DNA from: a virus
DNA: 20,353 nt
Reading direction: 5' to 3' (one strand)
IMG/VR virus record: IMGVR_UViG_3300034684_000295
Span: 1 to 20,353 of that record
Part shown: positions 753 through 14,909 of the stretch, one piece after another
Position numbering within the stretch: the stretch's first letter is position 1
How the letters are laid out: each line of letters begins with the position of its first letter
The notes under the pieces: generated by a model
Told to the model about the DNA's origin: nothing
The model's database searches: none
Seen by the model: the letters and a program-made list of their open reading frames with translations, nothing else
Made by a program: the position numbers and the translations under genes

Positions 753-2030
753 TCAGCACACAATTGATATCAAATTAGCAATGCTGCTGTCCATATTTCT
801 AAGGTCGATGAAAGAAACATCAACTTTAACATTGTCATCTGATGCATACCTAATTTCACCTTTGCTAACGCTGTCAGATTGAGGATAGAGTAGTACGATA
901 CCGTCGGCGTCATATTTCTTGCTATAAGCATACATTTGATACATATCAGACTGTGAAATCCCGTTGTTTCTTACATTGTCAGATAGCAGTTTCCACTTTG
1001 TGTCCAAAATGACTGTGCGCTCTCCAGATTCCAAAACAAGGTCGGGTCTGAGGGCAAATGCTCGGGTTGGGCTATCAAACAGACTATATCTGTTGTCTTG
1101 TGTCCTAAGACTGACGCCACTCCCAAGGTGCTTGCGAAACTTAGCTGCAACAAAGCTCTCGAAAATTTTCTCCATCGGAAACAGAAGCGCCAGAGCAACC
1201 TCACTTCCGGCAAAGGCAGTAAAACTGTTTCCCTTGAGGAAAACACGACACCACGAAAGCGCTTTGTCGTAGTGACTCATACTACGGTCGCTGATGCACT
1301 TCGAAAAGTCAGATTCGTAGCTTTCTGAGAAATCCACACCTTCAAAAAAAGTGAGCAACCGGGCGGCATTATGACGGTTGCGACTATCCGCTGTCTGTTT
1401 CAACAGAAAGTGCAGGGTGGACTTAATCAGTCGGTTCTCAGGTCGGTTGAAGCTAAAATCGTCGTAGCGAACATAGAATCGCTCATAGTTCATCAGGTTA
1501 TGCTTAATGTTCTGCGAAGCCAGCAATTTACCTTTGTAGAACCGTTCGTTAGCTTCTACGGGCATATATGCAGCTTTTAGTCCTTGTTTCGTCAGAACGG
1601 ACACCTCATCAAGAAACATCTTGATGAAGATCTCAAAGAGACTCAGTTTGTCAGTGAGTAAGTTCGAGACGTTAAAGTCCTTGAAAGTCACATCTTTGAG
1701 TGTTTTAAGCATTTCAAGGAAAATACGCTTCGTGTCACCCACGGAAATGTCGGCACCTGCTATCTTCGGTAATATCTCTATGACTGTCCCGTCCGTCATC
1801 GTTATCAATCCAACATAATTACGAGCAGTGATAATTTTGCCGATTCCGCGGCGAGCAGACAAGGAGAGTAATTCGATTGCCTCCGTTTCTGCACCAGCGG
1901 TATTAGCAAGAATAAATGTTTCCAGCGCAGCGAAGGTTCTCTCCGGTAAACTCTGATATCCACTAAGCGACGCACCTCTTATAAACCCGCCATATTCAGT
2001 TATGGTATAGGTCTTATTAGATAAACGCAT
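753..2030 (-). CDS. mcrC: McrC, nuclease subunit of a McrBC modification-dependent restriction system
   Basis: McrC is the PD-(D/E)xK nuclease that joins the McrB GTPase ring to cut modified DNA. The protein is 425 aa from the chosen start. The active site is visible near the C-terminus as RPD (Asp330), then ILDTK (Asp343, Lys345), followed by a Gln/Tyr helix (QSDMYQMYAY) typical of the family. The frame extends upstream to 2096, but the ATG at 2030 is preferred: GGGAGG lies 9 nt upstream, and the first 22 codons of the longer frame lie inside mcrB. With this start mcrC overlaps the end of mcrB by 14 nt, which suggests translational coupling. The protein is longer than E. coli McrC (about 350 aa), mostly in the N-terminal and middle regions, as in many Firmicutes McrC proteins. 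All expected catalytic residues are present, so it appears intact. Confidence 0.95.
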   Translation of the reverse strand: MRLSNKTYTITEYGGFIRGASLSGYQSLPERTFAALETFILANTAGAETEAIELLSLSARRGIGKIITARNYVGLITMTDGTVIEILPKIAGADISVGDTKRIFLEMLKTLKDVTFKDFNVSNLLTDKLSLFEIFIKMFLDEVSVLTKQGLKAAYMPVEANERFYKGKLLASQNIKHNLMNYERFYVRYDDFSFNRPENRLIKSTLHFLLKQTADSRNRHNAARLLTFFEGVDFSESYESDFSKCISDRSMSHYDKALSWCRVFLKGNSFTAFAGSEVALALLFPMEKIFESFVAAKFRKHLGSGVSLRTQDNRYSLFDSPTRAFALRPDLVLESGERTVILDTKWKLLSDNVRNNGISQSDMYQMYAYSKKYDADGIVLLYPQSDSVSKGEIRYASDDNVKVDVSFIDLRNMDSSIANLISIVC

Positions 2031-4605
2031 ATGCGTCGACCTCCCTGAACGCCGCACTGTTAATCTCATAGTATTCTGGGAAGTCAATGTCAGCATTCCC
2101 GAACAGCTTCAATGCATCGGTCTTTTTCACAATGAAACGAGTACTGTCATCCGGCTTCTGGTTATCACCTAGCACAAGTTGGATCTTCTCATAATCGTCA
2201 TAGAAGTATTCTTGCAGGAGTGGAATTATCTCATTTTCAAAGATCATTGCAAGACGGTCAATGCTCGGATCAGCTTTCAACGGTTGTAGAAAATATGAAT
2301 GACCAATGGTATGCTCACGGTCGAGTAGGACCGTGATTCGCTTGTTGAGGGTATCGAGCATTTTAGCTATGTCGATGCCGTCGATAAGAATATCCTTGAG
2401 CGTTTCCGATTCTGGCAACATTTCAACAAAATTGAATCGTCGGCGTAGGGCTGCATCAATTCGAGCAATGGAACGGTCAGCGGTATTCATCGTACCTATA
2501 AGATATATATTGTCAGGCACTCCAAAATTTTGTCCTGAGTACGGTAAAGAAGCTCTCAATTGTTCGCTTGCACCTATGCGTTTTGTCGGTTCAATGAGAG
2601 TTATCAGTTCGCCGAATATTTTTGATATATTTCCTCTGTTAATCTCATCGATTATGAAGACGCGATTCGGGATTTTTACCCTCTGCGTAAATATGGATGG
2701 TTTAAGCTTTTTAATCAGTTGAAGGGCGTCTGACACGGAGATTGACAGCTTATACACCGATGGCTGCATCATTAGTTTTTCGGAGTTAAGTTCGTAGATA
2801 TCCTCGTTGATACCTGTTACGAGCCATTTTACTTTTCGTAGCCTTTTATAGTGAGGATATTCATTATGCCATTCCGGCTCACCAGTAATAATGCCGATAG
2901 CATCGATTGTTTTGTTTGAATAACATGACAGAACAATATCGCCGATTTGCATTTTGTAGTAGAAAGCGTTTAGAATATTTCTCCCATTATCACCCTTTTC
3001 ATAGGTATCTGGCAGAGTTTCGCCGTAGCCGTCATACCCGATACGGATGTGGCTATTTGCAAAGCACTCCGTTCGGGTAGGATTATCACCTGTGCCTTCA
3101 AGTGAAACCTTCCATACACTCGGATTCTTACCAATCCCTAAGTCAATATTCCCATCATTCCCAATAGGCGTACCGGCCTTGTCGCAGAAAGCCTTAAAAA
3201 TTCCATCGTGAACCTCATATTCGATTTCACGCCCAGATTCGGCTTTATCCTCTGACGAGACAACAGGTCGAATACCTTCAATGAATTCCTCATATCCGAA
3301 CGACTGATGGAATGTCGTAAATGCAACAAGTCCATCCTCTTTGTACTTCAGATACCGAGCAAACACTGCATCATAATCCTCGGCTTTCACATCGGCAATT
3401 AGTTTTTCCTCGATTATGGCAACAGCATACTGTATTGAGCTATATGTCTTACCTGTGCCAGGTGTTCCAAAAAGGATGAGATTTTTAGGGATTTTATTAC
3501 CGATAGTTCGTCCCGCGGGCGAGCTATACCGTGCCTCAACTCCATCTGCTATAACTGATGCCCCTTCACTTTGCAAGAAACTGAGATAATGCTTTATGCC
3601 GCTCTTCAGATCATCTCTTTGGACTGACGGTTCAATATCGAAGATCACTTCCATCTTTGAGTACTCACCACCACTGGCTTGGAAATACCCATCGAGACCT
3701 CCGTTTTTTATTGCATTATTAAGATCATCAAATACAGCAATAGCAAATACAGGTCGTCCATTTTTTAGCTTCGTTTTGCCAATAGCAGTCGAAATGGTAT
3801 TAGCAGAATTTGATGAACCGCCATTGTCTACATACCACTGTTTAAACGCAGCCCGCTGTTGCCGTTCATCAACAACTATAGCCTTATTACTTCCGCTACC
3901 ACTTTCTGGAGAGCCTTCTTTTTTTTCTGTCCAAGCAGTATAGGAAATTTCAGGGAGTGTAATACTGGGTGTCTTCTCAGCTACTTTTGCTTTGAGCATA
4001 CCAAGAAAAGCCACATATTCATCTCCCGTGCAATTACCACTCGGAGCAGTTACGCCGTACTTGGCAGAAACGAATGAGCGGGAATTTCCATCTAACGGCA
4101 TAAAAAGATTGGGGCGTATCCAATACAATCCCATTGTAATATAGGCAAGACCGTTGCCGCTGACTGCGATCGCCTTTTCAAAAGCCACCTTAAATTCAGC
4201 TGAATATTCATTTGTTTCAGCGGCTTTCATAGCCAGCAGGAACAAATCCCATACTTCATCCACCCCATTGAAGAATGAGTTCATATTATTTAGAACTGGG
4301 ATACCCTCAAACTTCGTAGGTGCAGAAATTTGTATATCAAATGTTGCGGCGAGAACCTTCGCCAATACTGTTCGGTTTGCGTCCGTTGTACCACGATTCA
4401 TAACGCCAATTACAGAGAACGGGTCAATCTGGTGATGTCGGGGCTCCCACCAGTCTTCCCGCTCAAAATGCAAATATTTCATCAGTGGTTGCTCCGACGA
4501 AACTTTTTTCATTAGAGCAAAGAGTTCGTCCCTTTTATCGCTGTATGCGAGCAATTTATCGGCGAGTGCTTCGTAAAACGGCACCCATTGATATGCATTA
4601 TCCAT
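2017..4605 (-). CDS. mcrB: McrB, AAA+ GTPase with an EVE-like insert between Walker A and Walker B
   Basis: McrB recognises modified DNA and drives McrC through a hexameric GTPase ring. The frame opens at 4614, but that ATG abuts AGGAGG with no spacer. The fourth codon, an ATG at 4605, has the same AGGAGG at 9 nt and is chosen, giving 862 aa. In the longer numbering: an alpha-rich N-terminal domain at about 1-225; a Ser/Gly linker near 235-243; a second N-terminal region at 250-370; Walker A GTPGTGKT at 383-390; the McrB-type TTFHQSFGYEEF at 433-444; Walker B FIIDEINR at 653-660; and the GTPase signature MNTADRS at 709-715 followed by the arginine-rich LRRRF. Between the two Walker motifs, residues about 490-625 look like an EVE/PUA-type domain (VWKVSLEG, then KMQIGDIVLSCYS, then a IGIITGE strand). 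The EVE call is from pattern memory and is less certain than McrB itself. Confidence 0.93.
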   Translation of the reverse strand: MDNAYQWVPFYEALADKLLAYSDKRDELFALMKKVSSEQPLMKYLHFEREDWWEPRHHQIDPFSVIGVMNRGTTDANRTVLAKVLAATFDIQISAPTKFEGIPVLNNMNSFFNGVDEVWDLFLLAMKAAETNEYSAEFKVAFEKAIAVSGNGLAYITMGLYWIRPNLFMPLDGNSRSFVSAKYGVTAPSGNCTGDEYVAFLGMLKAKVAEKTPSITLPEISYTAWTEKKEGSPESGSGSNKAIVVDERQQRAAFKQWYVDNGGSSNSANTISTAIGKTKLKNGRPVFAIAVFDDLNNAIKNGGLDGYFQASGGEYSKMEVIFDIEPSVQRDDLKSGIKHYLSFLQSEGASVIADGVEARYSSPAGRTIGNKIPKNLILFGTPGTGKTYSSIQYAVAIIEEKLIADVKAEDYDAVFARYLKYKEDGLVAFTTFHQSFGYEEFIEGIRPVVSSEDKAESGREIEYEVHDGIFKAFCDKAGTPIGNDGNIDLGIGKNPSVWKVSLEGTGDNPTRTECFANSHIRIGYDGYGETLPDTYEKGDNGRNILNAFYYKMQIGDIVLSCYSNKTIDAIGIITGEPEWHNEYPHYKRLRKVKWLVTGINEDIYELNSEKLMMQPSVYKLSISVSDALQLIKKLKPSIFTQRVKIPNRVFIIDEINRGNISKIFGELITLIEPTKRIGASEQLRASLPYSGQNFGVPDNIYLIGTMNTADRSIARIDAALRRRFNFVEMLPESETLKDILIDGIDIAKMLDTLNKRITVLLDREHTIGHSYFLQPLKADPSIDRLAMIFENEIIPLLQEYFYDDYEKIQLVLGDNQKPDDSTRFIVKKTDALKLFGNADIDFPEYYEINSAAFREVDAYAFI

Positions 4606-4618
4606 CGTCTTCATCCTC

Positions 4619-7282
4619 CTATATTTCTACATCGCATCCATCTGCCACAAATAAATCAGGCATATTATATTGAATGTCCCGAGCCTCATTACAAGCATTG
4701 ATATTGCTGCAAGAAAGCAACGATCGACTTAATCGAAGTTCTCCCGTTGATGTAGTTACGACAAAATCAGACTGATGGGACTTAATATAAGTCGAAACCT
4801 CACGCGAAAAACCATTTCTTTGCAGTAGGATCGTTAGAGGGTTTGTCGTTCCATACTCAACAAATTCATACCAATTATTTTCGAACTCCGTAAGTTGGTG
4901 AATGCTTTTATACTCATTTGAAAAGCGAAGGAAATAATTGGAAATACTAAAAAGGATCGTATTTTCAATTACCTCTAGGGTATCCGCAAAGACGACATTC
5001 TTATGCTCTGCCGAACCAGTGTAACGTGTTTTCTCATGCTTGTTTATCCAGAAATTATTAGGATGCGTCTCTCTATATTCAATAGCCTTTTTCATAATAC
5101 TGCTCAAGCCGGTGCCTTCCATCCACTGGATAAGGATTACAGCATACCAACGAAGCAATGCACGCTGACCATTTTCGCTAACTTTGCCAAGAGATGTATA
5201 CTCATACTTCTCCCATTTGAAAATCCTACATAGCTTTTCAAGGAATGCCAGCACATCATCATATACAAAATGCCCCTCCACACGTTCCGGATACTTAAGT
5301 CCGAATGAAATGGCTGCAGATAAGTTTTGTGCTTGGTCAACAGAAATATTTATATCATCATCAAGTAGAGAAGCAGATTCTTGAAAATTCTCCCTGATTT
5401 TGTTTTCGTCCACCTCATTCAATAATGTTGAAAACTCACGTCTCACCAAGCTGTTTCTGTTCTCCAAAATATCTCGGAGCAAAATGAGCGCAAATTTCCG
5501 CATCATTGTATGTGCTTCTTCTGATTGGTTGGCATTGCGTTTTTCGATTTCAATATCCCCAGCGAGCAACTTGGATACTATGTATTTTTTCTCAACCTCC
5601 TGCAAGCCAGTTTTTCCAGATTCAATAGACAATTTTTGATCCGGGACCGGTGCTTGCAGCAGTTCGACATAGCCCTGCTCTGTGATTTTATCTCCTTGGG
5701 CAACTAAAAAAACATTACCGTATAAGTTGAACCGTATACGTCCAACACGGCCAATCAAATTTCTGAAATCTACGGGCGTCATCATCGAACGATTAATCTT
5801 AAAATCTGTTATAAATAGATTATCTGCAGGGAGATTGACCCCTTCCAAAAGGGTACTCGTACAGAACATAATTGTTATCTTGCCCTTTCGGAACAGGTCT
5901 TCAATTCGCATTCGTATGGATGCAGGTAAATACCCGATGTGGTAGGCAACACCCTTTTTTATTATTTCGGTTAAATAATACTCGCCGTGAACTTCGTTGC
6001 GGATATCTCGTGATAAATCTTCAAGGTCTTTATCACCGCTTTCTGGAAGCAAATTGGAAAATTCACGCGCAAAATCAATCGCTTTGTTTTTACCATTACA
6101 ATATACAATAGTCTGCTGGCGATTTTCAGGTGATTTCTTTATATTAATAACTTCGAACATTCTGAGAAAATCAATTAAAGTAGCATCGGATTTCTGAATG
6201 GTCGATAAGTGAACCAGTTCCTCGGCATAATCATTGTATGAGCTGATAGTATGGCTGTTTAAGTCAATTAAAAACTTGATTTGTGCCACAGGTGAAAATG
6301 TCGACCTGAGCCTATTATCTGCATTTGTCTCTTCTGAAAGTAGTCTCAGATATACCTCTGGGTTAGGAATATTGGGTGAGGCAAAAATAATATGAGGCTT
6401 CTGAGGTCGCTTTAGTAGCATATCGACAACTTTATAATAAAAAGGACCTCTGCTGTTTTTCCCGGACAGTTTATGCGCTTCATCAATGAATAGGTAATCA
6501 ATCTGCAAATTTGGCTTGCTGATAAGCAGATACAACAATCTTTCCGGTGTAAGAACAAGAATAAAATTATGCTGTCCTTCAAGGGCTAAGTCTCCAGCGG
6601 CAGTAATTACGCGATAATTTTGTTGCTGTAAGTATTCTTTTAGATCATTAATAATTTGGCTTCGATTTTCATTTATCAGTGCTTTTGTTGGAACAATTAA
6701 CGCAAAATTTTTCTTTGCTCCTTGCCTGACTTGCTCCTTTATAAACATTCGCATGATGAAGGATTTGCCCATAGAAGTCGGACCAGAATAGCTGAAATAT
6801 GGGTCGTCTAAGTGATCATACGCATTCTTCTGCGCACCAAAAAAACGCAGGTCTGGCTCAGCGGGTATTGTAAGATAATGACTCTGAAATTCCGCAAATA
6901 CTCTTTCAAGTGCAGAAGGTGCTTGATAATTGCTTTTTATAATTTTTTGCCCCTGATAATTACCAGTGTAAGAAAGGACTGATCCGGCAACCATATTTAC
7001 ATCTTCATTGTCCGGATATAGTTCATGTAGCAGTATTACTATTTCCTGCGCCCACATTTTGTGTTTATCTTTGTTTTCGGAACACGTCGATTTAGAAAGC
7101 AAATCGGCAAATCTTAGTGCTGAAGTAATATCAACCTCTCTGGACTGCCTTTTTGTTGTCAGCTCAAATTTCTGCAGTGCGTAATTATAGAGTATGTTAT
7201 CATATAGTTCATTCAGAAATGGATTGTGTTCAATATTACTAAATATAGCATCCCCAAGATTAATCTTCTTTGCATCACTCAT
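4619..7282 (-). CDS. hamB: HamB-type superfamily 2 helicase (Hachiman partner)
   Basis: This is an 887-aa DExH helicase. Motifs in order are: GPTSMGKS (Walker A, 167-174); PTKALINENR (motif Ia, from 198); TPERLL; FIDEAHKLSG (DEAH at 267-270); FASPNIPNP (motif III position, 300-308); a second RecA domain with YHIGYLPASIR near 448-457; CTSTLLEGVNLP (motif V); and NLIGRVGRI (motif VI, 508-516). The motif V/VI style is Ski2/RecQ-like. A long helical C-terminal region follows. In Hachiman defence the helicase HamB holds the nuclease HamA inactive until it senses aberrant DNA; that role is assigned here from the gene pair. The ATG overlaps the hamA stop as ATGA, a classic coupling. The stop at 4619-4621 overlaps the ribosome site of mcrB. 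The helicase core appears complete. Confidence 0.88.
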   Translation of the reverse strand: MSDAKKINLGDAIFSNIEHNPFLNELYDNILYNYALQKFELTTKRQSREVDITSALRFADLLSKSTCSENKDKHKMWAQEIVILLHELYPDNEDVNMVAGSVLSYTGNYQGQKIIKSNYQAPSALERVFAEFQSHYLTIPAEPDLRFFGAQKNAYDHLDDPYFSYSGPTSMGKSFIMRMFIKEQVRQGAKKNFALIVPTKALINENRSQIINDLKEYLQQQNYRVITAAGDLALEGQHNFILVLTPERLLYLLISKPNLQIDYLFIDEAHKLSGKNSRGPFYYKVVDMLLKRPQKPHIIFASPNIPNPEVYLRLLSEETNADNRLRSTFSPVAQIKFLIDLNSHTISSYNDYAEELVHLSTIQKSDATLIDFLRMFEVINIKKSPENRQQTIVYCNGKNKAIDFAREFSNLLPESGDKDLEDLSRDIRNEVHGEYYLTEIIKKGVAYHIGYLPASIRMRIEDLFRKGKITIMFCTSTLLEGVNLPADNLFITDFKINRSMMTPVDFRNLIGRVGRIRFNLYGNVFLVAQGDKITEQGYVELLQAPVPDQKLSIESGKTGLQEVEKKYIVSKLLAGDIEIEKRNANQSEEAHTMMRKFALILLRDILENRNSLVRREFSTLLNEVDENKIRENFQESASLLDDDINISVDQAQNLSAAISFGLKYPERVEGHFVYDDVLAFLEKLCRIFKWEKYEYTSLGKVSENGQRALLRWYAVILIQWMEGTGLSSIMKKAIEYRETHPNNFWINKHEKTRYTGSAEHKNVVFADTLEVIENTILFSISNYFLRFSNEYKSIHQLTEFENNWYEFVEYGTTNPLTILLQRNGFSREVSTYIKSHQSDFVVTTSTGELRLSRSLLSCSNINACNEARDIQYNMPDLFVADGCDVEI

Positions 7283-8205
7283 AACATAACATCCCCCTTC
7301 ATGACGTTCTCCATGATGGCCTTTTTCTGGCTTTCGGCATCATCAAAGGGCAGGATGTAAAAATAGAATGAGTGTGATCCAAGGTTGCTCGTGCGGATTT
7401 TTTCTGCAATGTACTCTGCATGCTGTTTTATATCATAAGCCATTTTTTGCATTACTATATTCTCGTATTCTTCTGAAGTGCGCCCCTCAGAAGACAAACC
7501 GATAGAATAGCCAAGGAAAACACCATAGGCAGTGTTATAGCTTGGTGTTTTACCCTGAGATGGCAAGATAAGGTCTTTGATCAGCTCAATTTCATCTGGG
7601 TCAAACGCGCGGTCGAGAATTGTCTTCTCGACCATTTTTATTTCACGAGCTTCATGCTGTTCAATGCGGAGGATACTTTCAAATGATCGGTCAATAGCAT
7701 CCTTAATTTCACCTATAACATTAGATGCACCAAATACCATCTGACATCGTTGCTCAGTTCCTGGAGCAAATAGATGTATGCTTTCACACGCACTGCCAAA
7801 CTGTGATAATTCAGTCGAAAGCTCCACTCTACTCATTAGCTTTGGAGCGCCAAGCATGTCCTCCAAAAAAGTATATACAAGCATTTCGCCGAGTTCATTA
7901 CCACAACCCTTTGTATCTGCTGCTCCGTTTTCGCGCATAATCCTCAAAGCCTGCGCAGTTACTGAATCTAAGTCGTCCTCGAGCCTAAAATCTTCAAGTT
8001 TTGCACGGGAAAAAACATAGCGACCAATATTGCGATACAACATGGTTTCCAAATCGCTGGAATAAAATTTGTTGTTGCGCAGAGCCAAATGGAAAAGTCG
8101 CAGTTGTTCTGGCATGCATAAGCCGAGGTTCTCAGTATGCAGAACCTCAACAAAAATGCCATCTGTGCTCTTCCTTTTTATTGTTTTAGCTAACACTCCG
8201 CTCAT
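7279..8205 (-). CDS. hamA: HamA, DUF1837 protein (Hachiman), with an unusual putative active site
   Basis: This 308-aa protein has the DUF1837 pattern: a helix GNELGEMLVYTFLE at 102-115, then APKLMSRVEL, then ESIHLF, then QMVFGASNVIGEIKDAID at 155-172. DUF1837 proteins next to a helicase are HamA, the nuclease effector of Hachiman. As I recall the family, the fold is PD-(D/E)xK-like with an Asp in the 'DGxH' position and a Glu-x-Lys in 'GESK'. Here the corresponding residues seem to be Glu141 and Ala160-Ser161-Asn162. A Glu-Ile-Lys lies six residues further on (166-168). Either the site is degenerate, or this subfamily places the catalytic pair elsewhere. The start ATG has AGGAGG 6 nt upstream. 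The gene lies 30 nt after hsdR and overlaps hamB by 4 nt. Family assignment is firm; nuclease activity is not. Confidence 0.85.
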   Translation of the reverse strand: MSGVLAKTIKRKSTDGIFVEVLHTENLGLCMPEQLRLFHLALRNNKFYSSDLETMLYRNIGRYVFSRAKLEDFRLEDDLDSVTAQALRIMRENGAADTKGCGNELGEMLVYTFLEDMLGAPKLMSRVELSTELSQFGSACESIHLFAPGTEQRCQMVFGASNVIGEIKDAIDRSFESILRIEQHEAREIKMVEKTILDRAFDPDEIELIKDLILPSQGKTPSYNTAYGVFLGYSIGLSSEGRTSEEYENIVMQKMAYDIKQHAEYIAEKIRTSNLGSHSFYFYILPFDDAESQKKAIMENVMKGDVML

Positions 8206-8235: not shown

Positions 8236-11200
8236 TCAGCATACGCTCCAAACATCAGCCAGATTCTCTGCTTGCTTCATCACAAGTTCTATTGCAGCAG
8301 GCTGTTTATCCGGCGGATAACCATATTTGTTTAGTATTCTGCGCACTATGACCATAATTCGAGCGCGTGCTGTTTCTTTAATCGCGAAATCGATGGTCGC
8401 ATTCTTTCTGACCTTGTCAGCGATCTCTCGAGCTATTTCTCGAAGTTGGTCGTCACCCAATACCTTTACTGCACTATTGTTGGTTTCGAGCGCATCATAA
8501 AATGCAAGTTCATCCTCCGAAAGCCCCATATCTTTACCTCGCTTATCGGAAGCATTGATTTCACGTGCGATACGAATGAGTTCTTCGATTATTTCGGCAG
8601 TAGTCAGAAGATTGTTCTGGTACCTTTTCAACGCACCATCGAGCATTTCCATTAATGTCTTTGACTTGGCGAGATTGTGCTTTGAACGCAATCTAATTTC
8701 GTCGGACAGCAACTTTTTCAGCAGCTCGATTGCTACATTTTTATATTTCATCCCTTCGATCTCTTTTAGGAATTCTTCAGAAAGAATCGAAAGTTCAGGC
8801 TTCTCAAGCCCCGCTGCGCTGAAGATGTCCACAACTTGCTCAGAGGCAATAGCAGAGTTTACAATGTTTCTTATAACAGAATCATAACTCTCATCTTTCC
8901 CGTTACCACTTGTCTCAAATTTCGTAAGCCGCGCCTTGACAGCTTGAAAGAACGCTATCTCCTCAGCATTTTCAAAGGTCGCAGGGTCAGGTTTAGCGAG
9001 CGCATATGCTTGTCCTAACAGCGAAACTTCACGAACATAACGATTCTTGCCATCGTCAACTCCAAGGATGAAGTCCTCCGCCTGCAATATCAGCGATAGC
9101 TTATCTTTGACTACACTTGAGAAGAACGTTGAATAATCGAAACCATGAAGTATCCCGCGAACAACTTCGATTTTCTCAAGCATAATTTCAACAGCTTTTT
9201 GATGGGTTTCAGCCGGGACACCTTTGCCACCGCTTTCTGCATAAAAGCCGAGAGCCTTCTTTAAGTTTGTCGCAATACCTATGTAGTCTACAATCAGACC
9301 GCCCGGCTTATCCTTGAACACGCGGTTGACACGAGCGATTGCTTGCATGAGGCTGTGGTCTTTCATTGGCTTATCTATATACATCGTGTTTAGGCACGGG
9401 GCATCAAAACCTGTGAGCCACATATCACGCACGATAACAATTTTCAATGGATCATTTTCGTCTTTCAAACGAAGTGCGAGGGCTTTGCGCTGTGCTTTAG
9501 TAGTGTGATGCTTCTGAATAGCAGCGCCATCAGAACTGCTCGAAGTCATTACAACCTTGATAACACCTTTATCTAAATCATCGCTATGCCATTCGGGACG
9601 CAATTTGATTATTGCATCATAAAGAGTTACTGCAATACGGCGACTCATCGCAACGACCAAGGCTTTTCCCTCAAATACCTCCTGCCTCTCTTCGAAGTGG
9701 GTCACGATGTCATTAGCAAGAATTCGGATTCTATCTTCGTTACCGACGATGGCTTCCAATTTTGCCCACTTGATTTTAGCAGCAGTAGCTTCATCGGCTT
9801 CACCAACTTCGTCAAGTTCCGCGTCAAACTGCTCCACAATTCGTTTGCCTTCCTCTGTAAGATTCACCTTTGCAAGGCGGCTCTCATAGAAGATGCGAAC
9901 GGTCACGTTGTCCTCGACTGCTTGTGCGATGTCATAGATATCAATATAGTTGCCAAACACAGCTGGTGTGTTTGCATCCTGCTTCTCAACGGGTGTTCCT
10001 GTGAATCCAATAAACGTGGCGTTTGGTAACGCATCGCGGATATACTTAGCAAATCCGTATGCTATTCGCTGACCGACCACCTCGCCGTTCTCCTTGATGT
10101 CACGGAGTTTGGCATTAAAACCATACTGAGTACGGTGCGCTTCGTCGGCGATAACCACGATGTTTTCGCGTGCAGACAGCAGTTCATAGACCGAAGCATT
10201 ATTGTCAGGAATGAACTTTTGTATGGTTGTGAAAACTATGCCGCCCGATGCAACCTTCAACAGCGTTTTCAGTTCCTCACAGGAGTCGGCTTGTTTCGGT
10301 GGCTGCCGCAATAAATCGCCGTTGCCCGCAAAGGTGTCAAACAGCTGATCGTCGAGGTCATTGCGATCATTGATAACCAATATAGTAGGGTTGTTCAAGG
10401 CACGCACTATTTTACCAGTGTAGAACACCATCGACAGCGATTTCCCAGCACCTTGGGTGTGCCAGACTACGCCTGCTTTGCGATCTCCTTTCGGTTGGTC
10501 ACTTGCTGCAGGCAGACCATAGCTATCTGGATCTTCTTGAAGCGCAAAGTTGGAAGTTCCTACACCGCTAGCTCTGATGGTTTGTTCAACAGCCTTATTG
10601 ACAGCATAATACTGGTGGTAAGCGGCAATTTTCTTGACCGTCTCAACCTTCACTATGTGTGTAACCTTGTCCTCCGTCTGAGACTTTTCATAAGTTACAA
10701 AGTTCTGAATGTAGTCTATCAGAGTCAAAGGATTGCATAGACCATGAATCATTGTGGAAAGCTCATCATCATACTTTGTAGCTTCTTTAATGCCGTCCTT
10801 TGTTTTCCATGCACTGAAACGGGAATAAAACGCAGTCAGCGACCCCGCTTTTGCCTCCAACCCGTCAGAGATGATGCAGATTTCGTTATAAGTGAAAAGC
10901 CTTGGTATCGCTAACTTGTATGCTTGCAACTGATCAAATGCTTTGTGGCAGGTAGCGTTCTCATCAGCGGGATTCTTCAGTTCAAATATAACAAGCGGAA
11001 TGCCATTAATGAAGAGAAGTACATCAGGGCGTTTGTTATTATTATTCTGGACGAGGGTATATTGATTGACCACGAGGAACTCGTTGTTCAGCGGATTCTC
11101 GAAGTCCACTACATGTACAAAATCGCCCTTAATATCACCATTCTTGCGATACTCAACAGGGACACCATCCACGAGCATCAGGTGAAACTCCTCGTTGTCA

Positions 11201-11451
11201 GTGAGCATATTTGAAGTGGCTATCCTTGAAAGTTTGCGAGCGGCGCCATGAATTACATCGATAGGAATACTCGGATTCAACTTGGACATAGCTGCTTGTA
11301 ATCGTCCAATTAATAGCACATCTCCATAGCTATGGCGCTCGGGATTCAGCGCATCGGGTGCGAGGTCAACACCAGATATATACGTATAACCGAGGCTTTG
11401 AAGTTCTTCGATAGCCATTTCCTCTATGGCGGATTCACATAGTTTAGCCAT
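8236..11451 (-). CDS. hsdR: HsdR, type I restriction endonuclease/translocase subunit
   Basis: HsdR provides ATP-driven DNA translocation and cleavage in type I restriction complexes. The 1071-aa protein has the N-terminal RecB-type nuclease signature: RPDVLLF with Asp143, then IFELKNP with Glu157-x-Lys159, and downstream QLQAYK. The helicase core follows: WHTQGAGKS (Walker A, 330-338), VVIADEAHRTQYG (DEAH at 436-439), FIGFTGTP (motif III), DMWLTGFDAP (motif V), and QAIARVNRVF (motif VI). A helical C-terminal domain, expected to dock on the methyltransferase, completes it. Length is normal for the family and no motif is missing. The ATG follows a GGGGG ribosome site at 7 nt that starts at the hsdM stop; only 11 nt separate the two genes. 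Confidence 0.96.
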   Translation of the reverse strand: MAKLCESAIEEMAIEELQSLGYTYISGVDLAPDALNPERHSYGDVLLIGRLQAAMSKLNPSIPIDVIHGAARKLSRIATSNMLTDNEEFHLMLVDGVPVEYRKNGDIKGDFVHVVDFENPLNNEFLVVNQYTLVQNNNNKRPDVLLFINGIPLVIFELKNPADENATCHKAFDQLQAYKLAIPRLFTYNEICIISDGLEAKAGSLTAFYSRFSAWKTKDGIKEATKYDDELSTMIHGLCNPLTLIDYIQNFVTYEKSQTEDKVTHIVKVETVKKIAAYHQYYAVNKAVEQTIRASGVGTSNFALQEDPDSYGLPAASDQPKGDRKAGVVWHTQGAGKSLSMVFYTGKIVRALNNPTILVINDRNDLDDQLFDTFAGNGDLLRQPPKQADSCEELKTLLKVASGGIVFTTIQKFIPDNNASVYELLSARENIVVIADEAHRTQYGFNAKLRDIKENGEVVGQRIAYGFAKYIRDALPNATFIGFTGTPVEKQDANTPAVFGNYIDIYDIAQAVEDNVTVRIFYESRLAKVNLTEEGKRIVEQFDAELDEVGEADEATAAKIKWAKLEAIVGNEDRIRILANDIVTHFEERQEVFEGKALVVAMSRRIAVTLYDAIIKLRPEWHSDDLDKGVIKVVMTSSSSDGAAIQKHHTTKAQRKALALRLKDENDPLKIVIVRDMWLTGFDAPCLNTMYIDKPMKDHSLMQAIARVNRVFKDKPGGLIVDYIGIATNLKKALGFYAESGGKGVPAETHQKAVEIMLEKIEVVRGILHGFDYSTFFSSVVKDKLSLILQAEDFILGVDDGKNRYVREVSLLGQAYALAKPDPATFENAEEIAFFQAVKARLTKFETSGNGKDESYDSVIRNIVNSAIASEQVVDIFSAAGLEKPELSILSEEFLKEIEGMKYKNVAIELLKKLLSDEIRLRSKHNLAKSKTLMEMLDGALKRYQNNLLTTAEIIEELIRIAREINASDKRGKDMGLSEDELAFYDALETNNSAVKVLGDDQLREIAREIADKVRKNATIDFAIKETARARIMVIVRRILNKYGYPPDKQPAAIELVMKQAENLADVWSVC

Positions 11452-11462
11452 TTCAACACCCC

Positions 11463-13613
11463 CTATAAGCCAGTAAAGTATTGACCTAATCCGGTCGACA
11501 AAACATCAATTGACTTTATAGTATCTTGGAGTAACGTTTTTTGAGAAAGCAACTCCTCATATAAAGCAGAAAGACGTTTCTGTGTTGCTTCATCTGGTAA
11601 TTCAATATCAAGATTAAGAAATCTATCCACTGGTGCTGTTCGCCTACGTTCGTGTGTTCCTATAGAAATGTTCCAGTACCATTTTTTCATAAGATCACTT
11701 TTAATAACATGACCAATTAGGAACGGCTCAAATTTTGGTTTGACTGAAAGGACGACATATGCTGGTGAGGTTATACCTAAGTCCACTACCCAGCACTGGT
11801 CTATTGCACCAGCCCAAAGGAGATAAGGATTATAAACAATGTCAGTCTTCTTTACGATCTTATACGAGCTTGTGTCTTCAGTAGCAACTCGCTTTGAGAA
11901 CCTCTCCCGTTGTAGTACTAAACCTGCATTTTCAGTTATTGATAGTATTTCTGGCTCTTCAGCTTTACCAAGTGTTGTTGTTGACTCTTCCAAAACATCG
12001 TAGAGTTTATATTTTATTAGTTCCGTCGTTGGCTTATTTAGTTCTTTTTTTATTTCATTCATCAGATTGTTGATATTTTGATTAATCGTAGCCATCTTAC
12101 CGCTGATTTCGGAAGCCGCATCCTTTGCGATTGCTAGAGAATGTTCCTTTAACTTAATATCAGATTCATCAACACCAATACCGATGTATTGACCCGGATA
12201 CAGAGAATATTCACTGTCACATATTTCGCTCTGGTGAACTGAACGACAATAACCCGGAATATCTTCATACTCGTTCTCTCTATATAGCCAAGAATGATAT
12301 GTTTCGCAAATTTCACCTATAATTCTTGAATCAAGCGTCCTATGCGTTCGATCAATATCAATAAACATTTTCGAAGCGTCAATGAAAAGAGTTTCATCTT
12401 TACGGCTAGTTTTCGACTTACCCCTTGATAATACCCATAAAGAAACAGGGGCTGGGGTTGTATAAAACAACTTACCTGGCAACAGCACGATACACTCTAC
12501 CAAATCTTCTCTCACTATGCCTGAGCGGATAGTTTTCTCAGCAGCAGATTCAGAAGCTAGGGCTTTTGTCGCTAAAAGAAACCCTGCCTTGCCTGTTGGT
12601 GATAGATGAGATATAAAGTGTTGAATCCAAGCATAATTAGCATTTGAAGCAGGCGGTGTACCATATTTCCAACGGTAGTCACCACTCAATAATTCTCCGC
12701 TCCAGTCACTATCATTGAATGGCGGATTGGTAATAATGTAGTCCGAACGTAAATCTTGATGAGCATCATTTAGGAAAGATCCCTCATTATTCCATTTCAC
12801 ATTAGAACTATCGATTCCACGCATTGCAAGGTTCATTTTGCACAGACGCCAAGTTGTTTGATTGCTTTCCTGACCATAGATTGATACAACACTTTCAAAC
12901 AGCTTGTCAATTTCCTTTGCTTTACCATTGTACCGGTCGGCATGAGCTTCAATAAACTTCTCACTTTGAACAAACATGCCACCAGATCCACAGCATGGAT
13001 CTAGTACACGACCCTCGTATGGCTCAAGCATTTCTACGAGTAGTTGAACAAGGCAACGAGGTGTATAAAATTGTCCCCCTTTTTTGCCTTCTGCAAGTGC
13101 GAATTGACCAAGAAAATACTCATAAACTGTACCAAGTACATCATTTGAGCGCGATAGTGAATCTCCCAGAGCAATTGCGCTAATTACGTCGATAAGTCCA
13201 CCGAGAGACTGCTTATCTAACTTTTCTTTCGCATACTCCTTTGGAAGGACACCCTGTAAAGATGGATTATCTTTTTCGATTGAGTCCATCGCATCGTCTA
13301 TGTCCTTACCTATAGTGGCGAGTTTTGCCCTTCCGCACAGGTAATCCCAACGAGCTTGAGGTGGCACATAGAATACATTCTCTGCTCGGTATTCATAAGG
13401 ATCGTCCGGATCAGCTCCAGTATAATCGCCTTCGCCTGCCTCCAGTTTGTGGTATAACTCATAGAAGTTATCCGAAATGTACTTAAGGAATATTAAACCA
13501 AGTACAATATGTTTATATTCCGCTGCATCCATATTTTTACGCAGCTTATCCGCAGCAGCCCATAGCGCTTGCTCAACAGGTTGATCTTTAACTACTTTTT
13601 TTGCTTTTGCCAT
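11463..13613 (-). CDS. hsdM: HsdM-S fusion: type I methyltransferase with a C-terminal half specificity subunit
   Basis: The N-terminal 480 residues are a standard type I adenine methyltransferase: helical HsdM_N domain (ADKLRKNMD, IVLGLIFLKY), then FYTPRCLVQLLVEML at 182-196, motif I DPCCGSGGMF at 205-214 (SAM binding), and motif IV NPPF at 296-299 (catalysis). Usual HsdM length is about 500-530 aa, but this protein has 716. Residues about 485-525 form a long heptad-like helix. Residues 530-665 resemble one HsdS target recognition domain. A second helix at 675-705 (SALYEELLSQKTLL) matches the distal conserved helix of HsdS. No separate hsdS is present in the window. A single recognition domain per chain implies that two copies pair, which would predict a symmetric split recognition site. 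The ATG has AAGGAG 7 nt upstream. It methylates host DNA to protect it from HsdR. Confidence 0.9.
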   Translation of the reverse strand: MAKAKKVVKDQPVEQALWAAADKLRKNMDAAEYKHIVLGLIFLKYISDNFYELYHKLEAGEGDYTGADPDDPYEYRAENVFYVPPQARWDYLCGRAKLATIGKDIDDAMDSIEKDNPSLQGVLPKEYAKEKLDKQSLGGLIDVISAIALGDSLSRSNDVLGTVYEYFLGQFALAEGKKGGQFYTPRCLVQLLVEMLEPYEGRVLDPCCGSGGMFVQSEKFIEAHADRYNGKAKEIDKLFESVVSIYGQESNQTTWRLCKMNLAMRGIDSSNVKWNNEGSFLNDAHQDLRSDYIITNPPFNDSDWSGELLSGDYRWKYGTPPASNANYAWIQHFISHLSPTGKAGFLLATKALASESAAEKTIRSGIVREDLVECIVLLPGKLFYTTPAPVSLWVLSRGKSKTSRKDETLFIDASKMFIDIDRTHRTLDSRIIGEICETYHSWLYRENEYEDIPGYCRSVHQSEICDSEYSLYPGQYIGIGVDESDIKLKEHSLAIAKDAASEISGKMATINQNINNLMNEIKKELNKPTTELIKYKLYDVLEESTTTLGKAEEPEILSITENAGLVLQRERFSKRVATEDTSSYKIVKKTDIVYNPYLLWAGAIDQCWVVDLGITSPAYVVLSVKPKFEPFLIGHVIKSDLMKKWYWNISIGTHERRRTAPVDRFLNLDIELPDEATQKRLSALYEELLSQKTLLQDTIKSIDVLSTGLGQYFTGL

Positions 13614-13689: not shown

Positions 13690-13914
13690 CTATTTATCAG
13701 TGTTGTCGGTGTCCGTTAAGTCGGAATTATCTGCAGCGCCACCGGAGCGAATCCAGTCATCAACTTCAGATAGCTTAAATTTCCAAAGCCGTCCAACTTT
13801 ATATGCTGGCATATTTCTCTTGGCGATCCACTGCAGAATGGTCTCACGGCCTACACCGAGATACTCTTGTACTTCTTTTAAGGTAGACCATTTTTCAATG
13901 CTTTTATCGCTCAC
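13690..13914 (-). CDS. Excisionase-type helix-turn-helix DNA-binding protein
   Basis: This 74-aa protein has the compact MerR/excisionase-type HTH (HTH_17) pattern: WSTLKEVQEYLGVGRETILQ, then WIAKRNMPAYKVGRLWKF, then a final helix EVDDWIRSG, and an Asp/Thr-rich tail. Such proteins bind DNA as small regulators or recombination directionality factors. The chosen start is the GTG at 13914, because GGAGG lies 8 nt upstream; an earlier TTG at 13929 would overlap that ribosome site. It sits 23 nt after the NBR1-domain gene and 76 nt before hsdM-S, inside the operon and far from any integrase in view. That position favours a role as a restriction controller or anchoring regulator over excision, but this is inferred. 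Confidence 0.85.
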   Translation of the reverse strand: MSDKSIEKWSTLKEVQEYLGVGRETILQWIAKRNMPAYKVGRLWKFKLSEVDDWIRSGGAADNSDLTDTDNTDK

Positions 13915-13937
13915 GTTATTAACCTCCAAATGAGTGT

Positions 13938-14807
13938 CTATTCAATTTCGAACTTGGAATCTATTGTAACGTTAAATAACCTTTTGTTATTAGGGAAGCA
14001 GTCGTTACCCTCACTATCCTGCATCTCCCACAAACATTCATAACGTCCTTCAAAACCACGAGTGTCAAAGCTCGTGGTTATTTTTATTTCTTTTCCTGGC
14101 GCAACATCCGGTATATCGATAGAGTTCTTATCAGTTCTCGGTCTTACAGTGCCATTGTTAATAAAAACAAGTTTTCGACTACGCCAAGTCTGATTTCCGG
14201 TATTGCGAATCATCCATGTGTGATCAAATTGCTCATAACACTTTTTCGAATAAATCCGTGCCGGTAGAAATTCAAGAACATATGCCCCATCACCAGGATA
14301 CAACGGAGCTAAAGACTGAGGTTTTTCATCGGCAGGCTCAGCGAGGAGTCGTTGGTATTCCATGGCTACGATATCGTCGACATCACTATCTTCATTCTTT
14401 ACAAGATAATTAAATTGAAGAGCAAGAGCTTGAGAAAAGGTACCTTTCTGTGGTTCGAGCGAAACTGGTATTGCAAATGCTGTCATTGCTTCACGAACCT
14501 TATCATCCATCAAATGCCTATCAAACATACCGACCAATGCGTCCAACTGAATATTAGCTGGGAATGAATCCTTTAGATTCTGTGTCAGCGGCTTCGATCC
14601 ATTATACAGCTTCTTTTGATACTCCTTGTCAGCAGTGACGGACGCAGAAAAATATGAACTTCCGCCGGCTACAAACAACTTGCTCACAAACAAACCTTGA
14701 CTAGATAGTTGATGACAATATGGATATATTCTTTTGCAATACTGGGAGAAGTTGATATTAATCACCTCCGTGAAAGTCCCTTGATAAGTCCCTTTAGTCC
14801 CTTGCAA
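13938..14807 (-). CDS. Protein with C-terminal NBR1-type Ig-like (FW) domain, first gene of the defence operon
   Basis: The frame gives up to 289 aa. Residues about 186-282 show the NBR1 FW pattern: FDHTWMIRNTGNQTW with two spaced tryptophans, VAPGKEIKI, and GRYECLWEMQDSEGNDCFP ending in a strand. The FW fold is an Ig-like module known from the eukaryotic autophagy receptor NBR1; bacterial copies have no settled function. The N-terminal 150 residues are helical and I do not recognise the family. There is no signal peptide or membrane span. The start is uncertain. The outermost start is TTG at 14807, but its first codons merely translate the AAGGGACT repeats and have no ribosome site. GGAGG at 14765-14769 would place initiation 8 nt later at an ATC codon (14754-14756), where the protein-like sequence NFSQYCKRIYPYCHQ begins. 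The interval 14757-14807 should be treated as doubtful coding. Confidence 0.78.
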   Translation of the reverse strand: MQGTKGTYQGTFTEVININFSQYCKRIYPYCHQLSSQGLFVSKLFVAGGSSYFSASVTADKEYQKKLYNGSKPLTQNLKDSFPANIQLDALVGMFDRHLMDDKVREAMTAFAIPVSLEPQKGTFSQALALQFNYLVKNEDSDVDDIVAMEYQRLLAEPADEKPQSLAPLYPGDGAYVLEFLPARIYSKKCYEQFDHTWMIRNTGNQTWRSRKLVFINNGTVRPRTDKNSIDIPDVAPGKEIKITTSFDTRGFEGRYECLWEMQDSEGNDCFPNNKRLFNVTIDSKFEIE

Positions 14808-14826
14808 GGGTAATTTTTAGTCCCTT
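14775..14826. repeat. Four AGTCCCTT direct repeats in the leader of the defence operon
   Basis: AGTCCCTT occurs at 14775-14782, 14787-14794, 14796-14803 and 14819-14826; on the transcribed minus strand it reads AAGGGACT. One copy extends into the perfect 12-bp palindrome CCCTTGCAAGGG at 14799-14810. The cluster lies between the putative minus-strand promoter and the first ribosome site. It may be an operator for the HTH protein of the operon or an RNA-level element; the sequence alone does not decide. Confidence 0.7.
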
Positions 14827-14828
14827 AG

Positions 14829-14861
14829 CGCCCTGCTACTCTTATTACAGATGGCAGGGCG
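14829..14861 (-). other. Stem-loop in the defence operon leader
   Basis: CGCCCTGC at 14829-14836 and GCAGGGCG at 14854-14861 form a perfect 8-bp GC-rich inverted repeat around a 17-nt loop. In the minus-strand transcript it would fold about 30 nt after the predicted start. No run of U follows, so it is not a standard terminator; it may stabilise the RNA or be a protein site. Confidence 0.55.
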
Positions 14862-14900: not shown

Positions 14901-14909
14901 ATTATATCA
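14901..14909 (-). promoter_or_regulatory. Extended -10 promoter of the defence operon
   Basis: On the minus strand this reads TGATATAAT, a perfect TATAAT with the TG of an extended -10. The -35 position (14924-14929) is poor, reading TAGTTT, as is tolerated with an extended -10. Transcription would start near 14893, giving a leader of roughly 125 nt before the GGAGG of the first gene. Confidence 0.55.

Follow-up and report, generated by a model that had tools for sequence, protein, structure and literature searches.

A candidate two-part autoregulator with an NBR1-type FW domain at the head of a prophage-borne restriction-modification and Hachiman cassette

Control of defence operons, meaning how they are silenced and switched on, is little known, especially for operons carried by prophages. 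In the locus analysed here, the first gene of the defence operon joins an NBR1-type Ig-like (FW) domain to an N-terminal domain (N-domain) without a named family. The initial annotation offered three roles for the product: a phage sensor, an assembly factor for the restriction complexes, or a regulator.

The operon and its first gene

The window, the whole 20.4 kb stretch of DNA that was analysed (virus record IMGVR_UViG_3300034684_000295), is a prophage fragment. Its right part carries a phage module on the plus strand, encoding a sigma-like protein, a DUF2800-type exonuclease, an ssDNA-binding protein and a DNA polymerase, and its left part carries the defence operon on the minus strand, transcribed away from the phage module. 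A DUF2800 RNA motif (RF02960; 15007-15164, plus strand, 126.7 bits) separates the phage sigma-like gene from the divergently oriented defence operon. The operon runs in the order FW gene, HTH_17, HsdM with half a specificity domain, HsdR, HamA, HamB, McrB-like, McrC and Schlafen/AlbA_2, the last of these in the window and truncated by the window edge:

13938-14756, minus strand: protein of N-domain and FW domain, likely true extent; ATC start, 272 amino acids, stop included; relatives align from the same point
13690-13914, minus strand: HTH_17 / excisionase-like protein, MAD1-like; PF12728 E 4.7e-14, NF047737 E 1.1e-18 (below the NF047737 cut-off)
11463-13613, minus strand: HsdM with a C-terminal half specificity domain; N6_Mtase 5.7e-96, HsdM_N 6.9e-27, Specificity_I at residues 531-706
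8236-11451, minus strand: HsdR; HSDR_N, SWI2_SNF2 and T1RH-like_C
7279-8205, minus strand: HamA, Hachiman nuclease; PF08878 9.5e-37, PADLOC HamA 3.8e-123
4619-7282, minus strand: HamB, Hachiman helicase; PADLOC HamB1, E 0, 1201 bits
2017-4614, minus strand: McrB-like AAA protein; AAA_5 1.9e-13, McrB PRK11331 7.8e-36
753-2096, minus strand: McrC; PF10117 1.5e-94

The open frame at 13938-14807 (minus strand) comes first and the HTH_17 gene at 13690-13914 directly next, in agreement with the initial annotation. Its term "restriction operon" is right about the restriction-modification (RM) genes but too narrow, the whole being a prophage cassette of restriction-modification and Hachiman, with McrBC in the window. 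HamA (DUF1837) adjoins the HamB helicase, the arrangement by which Hachiman is recognised. Among the type I RM genes HsdM and HsdR are clear, and the specificity part is the half-S on the HsdM C-terminus; a separate HsdS, which most relatives have, does not appear in the window.

The elements within and upstream of the first gene are as follows:

13944-14297, minus strand: FW (NBR1-type Ig-like) domain, residues 154-271; PF16158 E 1.3e-10, VIA Z 12.4, 11.4 and 10.7
14334-14756, minus strand: N-terminal all-helical domain, residues 1-141, the proposed operator-binding half; AlphaFold2 model of the domain alone with pLDDT 92.9 and pTM 0.89
14761-14769, minus strand: extended Shine-Dalgarno GGAGGTGAT, near-perfect, directly before the ATC start
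14775-14826, minus strand: four direct repeats AAGGGACT, the proposed operator, spacings 23-9-12 bp
14901-14906, minus strand: TATAAT, likely extended -10 (TGTGATATAAT) of the operon promoter, conserved in relatives about 150 bp from the start

The FW domain is genuine, as had been read from the C-terminal third of the protein. Pfam N_BRCA1_IG (PF16158) matches this third with 42.2 bits against a cut-off of 28, and all 18 of the 18 aligned relatives match the same family (E up to 5; best 1.2e-10). The AlphaFold2 model of the whole protein, built from 12 relatives, has a mean pLDDT of 86.9 and predicts an FW-like beta sandwich at the C-terminus, whose three best PDB matches by VIA are solved FW domains, namely ILRUN (6vhi, Z 12.4), NBR1 (4ole, Z 11.4) and CtNbr1 (7vqo, Z 10.7); NBR1 and ILRUN are also among the PDB chains matched by sequence profile. 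The spaced tryptophans pointed out initially number three rather than four: W181, W191 and W243 are invariant in the aligned relatives, and the fourth NBR1 tryptophan is absent here, as it is from ILRUN in the same alignment. PF16158 is the sole Pfam match above cut-off, with none to the PB1, ZZ or UBA domains of NBR1 autophagy receptors.

The extent of the gene requires correction. A TTG start at 14807, as initially assigned, is improbable; in two relatives (L003 and L004) the stretch from there to the gene contains a stop, and two others (L005 and L042) are without a standard in-frame start upstream. From the alignment of relatives, the true start is likely the ATC at 14756, 8 nt past GGAGG. 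A GGAGG-like motif with an 8-nt spacer recurs in most relatives, where the codon at the aligned start is ATC, ATA, ATT, ATG or TTG. In the relative L040 the start is a GTG that precedes the aligned point by a few codons, and a GTG three codons upstream, within the extended Shine-Dalgarno, is a possible alternative start in several loci including the window. Conserved AUA/AUU starts with an extended Shine-Dalgarno are documented for the Firmicutes repressor CcpN and for CvfC1, with expression about 10% of that from AUG (PMC13009471). No match to a full sigma-70 consensus is found for the operon promoter, and a search of the leader strand against Rfam returns nothing.

The cassette in related prophages

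IMG/VR contigs, two phage records and a small number of Clostridia genomes contain relatives, which are rare: in a sample of the order they turned up in 4 of 394 genomes. The cassette is borne by prophages of gut-type Clostridia. A close relative of the FW gene, with 87% identity, lies in Caproiciproducens galactitolivorans. The arrangement FW-HTH-RM-HamAB is kept at the same prophage position in about 20 relatives, all from one prophage group and thus not fully independent, and the operon is either divergent from the phage replication module or belongs to it. All relatives with sufficient flanking sequence have the FW gene, then HTH_17, then RM genes, with HamA and HamB wherever the contig is long enough, which supports the tie of the gene to defence genes. 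One relative (L010) is assigned to the group Heliusvirales, of which a single passing mention was found in the literature searched.

The RM block of the cassette is exchangeable. The window and the relative L002 represent a clean cassette exchange in which the whole RM block is swapped between near-identical flanks: identity is 88% for FW, 96% for HamA and 98% for HamB, the HTH proteins are near-identical by eye, and HsdM and HsdR share 23% and 24%. In L010 (14699-19638) and L014 (8210-13014) a type III-like Res/Mod pair replaces the type I genes between HTH_17 and HamA, and L006 carries an AbiJ_NTD4 protein (13888-14853) between hsdS and hsdR.

The N-terminal domain and the direct repeats

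The initial annotation placed the N-terminal half outside known families. This holds for named families, with none found in Pfam and no HTH family at E 5 among 18 members, but the domain is not unique. The PADLOC LmuA model PDLC03857 weakly matches the N-terminal half in 7 of 18 members (best E 0.0011), a lead that points to ABC-3C operons whose first protein is an N-domain joined to CTD6 or CTD11. In single profile comparisons with hhalign, as distinct from database searches, the N-domain matches these LmuA-type N-termini at 95.9% (E 5.8e-9) and 95.5% (E 1.5e-8), collinearly over 119 columns starting at residue 1. These profile comparisons make the N-domain a homologue of the N-terminal part of the CTD6 and CTD11 proteins of ABC-3C/Lamassu. 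Its ABC-3C/Lamassu carriers are Streptococcus and Clostridia prophages and an Enterococcus plasmid, examples being Streptococcus phage Javan630 and an Enterococcus faecium plasmid on which the operon lies away from phage genes. Scans of viral contigs with the single proteins L055 and L052 gave none or one distant relative.

The domain model has no recognisable HTH and no PDB relatives above noise by Foldseek or VIA (best Z 2.7), which is not proof of a new fold. An XRE fold finds no support, with nothing in Pfam and 0.3% by hhalign against the XRE of a Micromonospora XRE-FW protein, though a remote kinship of fold may exist; PADLOC REase_II matches to single relatives are weak, fall in different regions and are taken as noise. 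Over its first 75 residues the domain carries a net positive charge in most FW relatives; two are neutral, and in L052 and L055 the charge is negative. The protein L055 (3-1202), which matches PDLC03857 at E 8.7e-21, has the N-domain followed by a CxxC...CxxC (HNH-like) stretch and then CTD11, the N-domain thus preceding an effector-like part rather than replacing it.

Leaders of N-domain genes usually carry three or four direct repeats, whichever C-terminus follows. In the window the repeat is GGGACT, and AAGGGACT has four matches in 20.4 kb, all within the array, against 0.39 expected. When 576 three-site geometries were scored over 12 leaders, 9/12 came out far ahead of the rest, and the first-to-third distance of the last three sites is 20-22 bp, equal to two helical turns, in nearly all leaders. 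The spacing is 9/12 bp for FW, 10/10 or 10/11 bp for CTD6 and 10/10/10 bp for CTD11; each ABC-3C N-domain gene has three or four direct repeats upstream, at 10 or 11 bp. Eight further viral contigs with CTD6 all show TCGGAA-like repeats at 10/10 bp, their proteins being close kin of L060 and 77-99% identical to the Streptococcus phage protein. The core itself varies by clade (GGGAC, GGTACA, AGGACT, AGGACA, AGGTCC, GGTTCT), and its cluster occurs a single time in each locus read.

A repeat test scoring any three-site array with a total span of 20-22 bp gives 17 or 18 of 18 for 12 of the 16 N-domain leaders and for none of 22 controls, the range having been set after both leader groups were seen, which makes the test not fully blind. 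The controls were leaders of HTH_17-headed RM operons, of other genes of the same operons and of one CTD6 gene without an N-domain. The remaining leaders (L014, L038, L040 and L052) fall below significance.

The placement of the array allows two kinds of target. The repeats are 20-90 nt upstream of the start, probably inside the transcribed leader, and their distance to the start is steadier than that to the -10. This placement, together with the non-AUG starts that point to translational control, fits a reading in which the N-domain recognises the repeats as part of the mRNA leader and regulates how the first gene is translated, near its strong Shine-Dalgarno and weak start. We consider that reading unlikely, though not negligible, as the spacings 10/10, 10/11, 9/12 and 8/13 all total about 21, or two turns of DNA, for which single-stranded RNA offers no reason, and a leader structure common to all clades is not found, a hairpin being present in the window clade only. 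DNA is favoured as the target because the repeats are helically phased.

Which protein reads the repeats, and to what end

Of the 20 loci read, 19 encode HTH_17 directly after the FW protein. Excisionase-type proteins bind DNA and recognise direct repeats; HTH_17 could likewise be the reader, leaving the FW protein with another job. This appears very unlikely. The HTH region hardly varies between loci that have different repeat cores, the ABC-3C loci have repeats and no HTH_17 gene in their annotated stretch, and five HTH_17-headed RM operons without FW have no significant repeats. Alternatively, the type I methylase of the operon might itself recognise the repeats, which would make control dependent on methylation, and bipartite type I sites can hold such short cores. 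That proposal is hardly credible, given that the window and L002 share the same GGGACT array with unrelated HsdM and HsdR (23-24% identity) and that L010 and L014 carry a type III-like pair. HTH_17 and the RM genes are therefore unlikely readers, HTH_17 staying constant while cores change and the RM genes being replaced while the core stays.

The relative L005 separates the two halves of the FW protein. Its N-domain is 69% identical to that of L028, which has the same GGTACA core, and 43% to that of the window, whereas its FW domain is 68% identical to that of the window and 56% to that of L028. By these identities L005 is a natural mosaic: its N-domain and core resemble those of L028 and L006, its FW domain that of the window clade. 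This rests on the identity figures, since the tree of the FW half does not strongly support the placement. The repeat core goes with the N-domain rather than with HTH_17, RM genes or FW. As neither HTH_17, the RM genes nor FW tracks the core, and given the L005 mosaic, the N-domain is indicated as the repeat reader.

Among the three roles offered, that of regulator appears best supported, the N-domain being tied to phased repeats upstream of its own gene. If the protein were instead a phage sensor, or helped to assemble the restriction and Hachiman complexes, repeat binding would be a side activity or the work of a host or phage factor. NBR1 FW domains do bind proteins (PMC9233695), and the gene keeps its HTH and HamAB neighbours when the RM genes are exchanged. 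We judge this alternative decidedly unlikely, since the same N-domain and repeat type occur in ABC-3C operons that lack RM genes and on a plasmid, at a distance from phage genes; the former disfavours assembly in particular.

Our preferred reading, which we regard as moderately probable, is that the protein is a two-part autoregulator heading a prophage-borne defence cassette. The N-terminal helical domain would bind the direct-repeat array upstream of its own start, head to tail on one face of the DNA, and the bound domain would repress the whole operon. The FW domain would serve as a protein- or peptide-binding module, its ligand possibly a phage protein, an operon product or a host factor, and ligand binding would be expected to alter DNA binding. 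The strong Shine-Dalgarno with a non-AUG start (ATC here; ATA, ATT or ATC in many relatives) may keep the regulator scarce. The FW fold, the gene order, the repeats, their association with the N-domain and the odd start region are read from sequence; DNA binding by the N-domain, repression as its sign, weak translation and the FW ligand are what we infer from them. Counting against the autoregulator are an N-domain model without HTH or PDB match, its mixed charge and the four of 16 leaders that fall short, and the leader position of the repeats with their steadier distance to the start also fits RNA binding. The N-terminal slot of ABC-3C proteins is usually an effector, which likewise speaks against a regulator.

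A wider reading, to which we give an even chance, takes the N-domain as a portable operator-reading module. Mobile elements would set the N-domain and matching phased repeats before a carried defence operon, RM-Hachiman via FW and ABC-3C/Lamassu via CTD6 or CTD11, so that a defence protein or sensor would carry the DNA-binding part of its own operon. This suggests a portable switch by which defence operons control themselves, and a testable regulator family, with candidate operators mapped, common to two unrelated kinds of defence system. It would give bacterial FW domains a possible role as the sensing half, and may explain LmuA-filed proteins without a recognisable effector domain, whose N-terminal part may be a regulator.

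The closest parallel in control is RptR, which heads an RM/DarTG island and represses through three 9-bp direct repeats (PMC12255303). Like the gene here, that of RptR comes first in a composite RM defence island (type I RM / DarTG2) and has a short row of direct repeats upstream of its start, and RptR is likewise a small helical protein with no PDB relatives at first look; unlike the protein here, it is a single-domain dimer reading a palindrome, TAGCTA, in the promoter (PMC12255303). The cores here vary, are not all palindromic and lie in the leader, and the protein has an FW domain, the comparison being with the description of RptR only.

The initial annotation considered the pairing of FW domain and partner undescribed. 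An FW domain with a DNA-binding domain is known from XRE-FW fusions in other bacteria (PMC3357945, PMC9233695), while FW with this N-domain in a defence setting was not found in the literature searched. The XRE-FW proteins, including L016-L024 of Micromonospora and Asanoa, likewise have a C-terminal FW domain behind an N-domain that is, or is proposed to be, DNA-binding, but the N-domain here is not XRE by sequence, there is no transmembrane segment, and the gene lies in a prophage defence cassette. LmuA of ABC-3C/Lamassu (CTD6 or CTD11) shares the homologous N-domain, the first position in the operon, the phased repeats upstream and an often divergent orientation from phage early genes; it differs in ending in an ABC-3C CTD and in its partners, a middle component and an SMC-like ATPase. 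With NBR1 and ILRUN the shared feature is the Ig-like sandwich (Z 11.4 and 12.4), whereas this bacterial phage gene lacks PB1, ZZ and UBA and has three tryptophans, not four. MADS mad1 and other HTH_17-headed RM operons also place an HTH_17 gene directly before RM genes, and here an extra N-domain-FW gene stands ahead of it.

Variant copies of the gene and cassette were also seen. In Caproiciproducens galactitolivorans (L011, 17559-20814) HamA and HamB each lie in two frames, so that Hachiman may be broken, and the FW gene is intact. L047 (G003:C164) is a degenerate FW remnant interrupted by stop codons, whose genome also carries two intact copies, and L034 (10088-10886) is an FW gene without the N-terminal part, with HTH_17 still next to it. 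In a Ruminococcus MAG protein (L015, 3209-3811), a likely transmembrane segment lies ahead of the FW domain.
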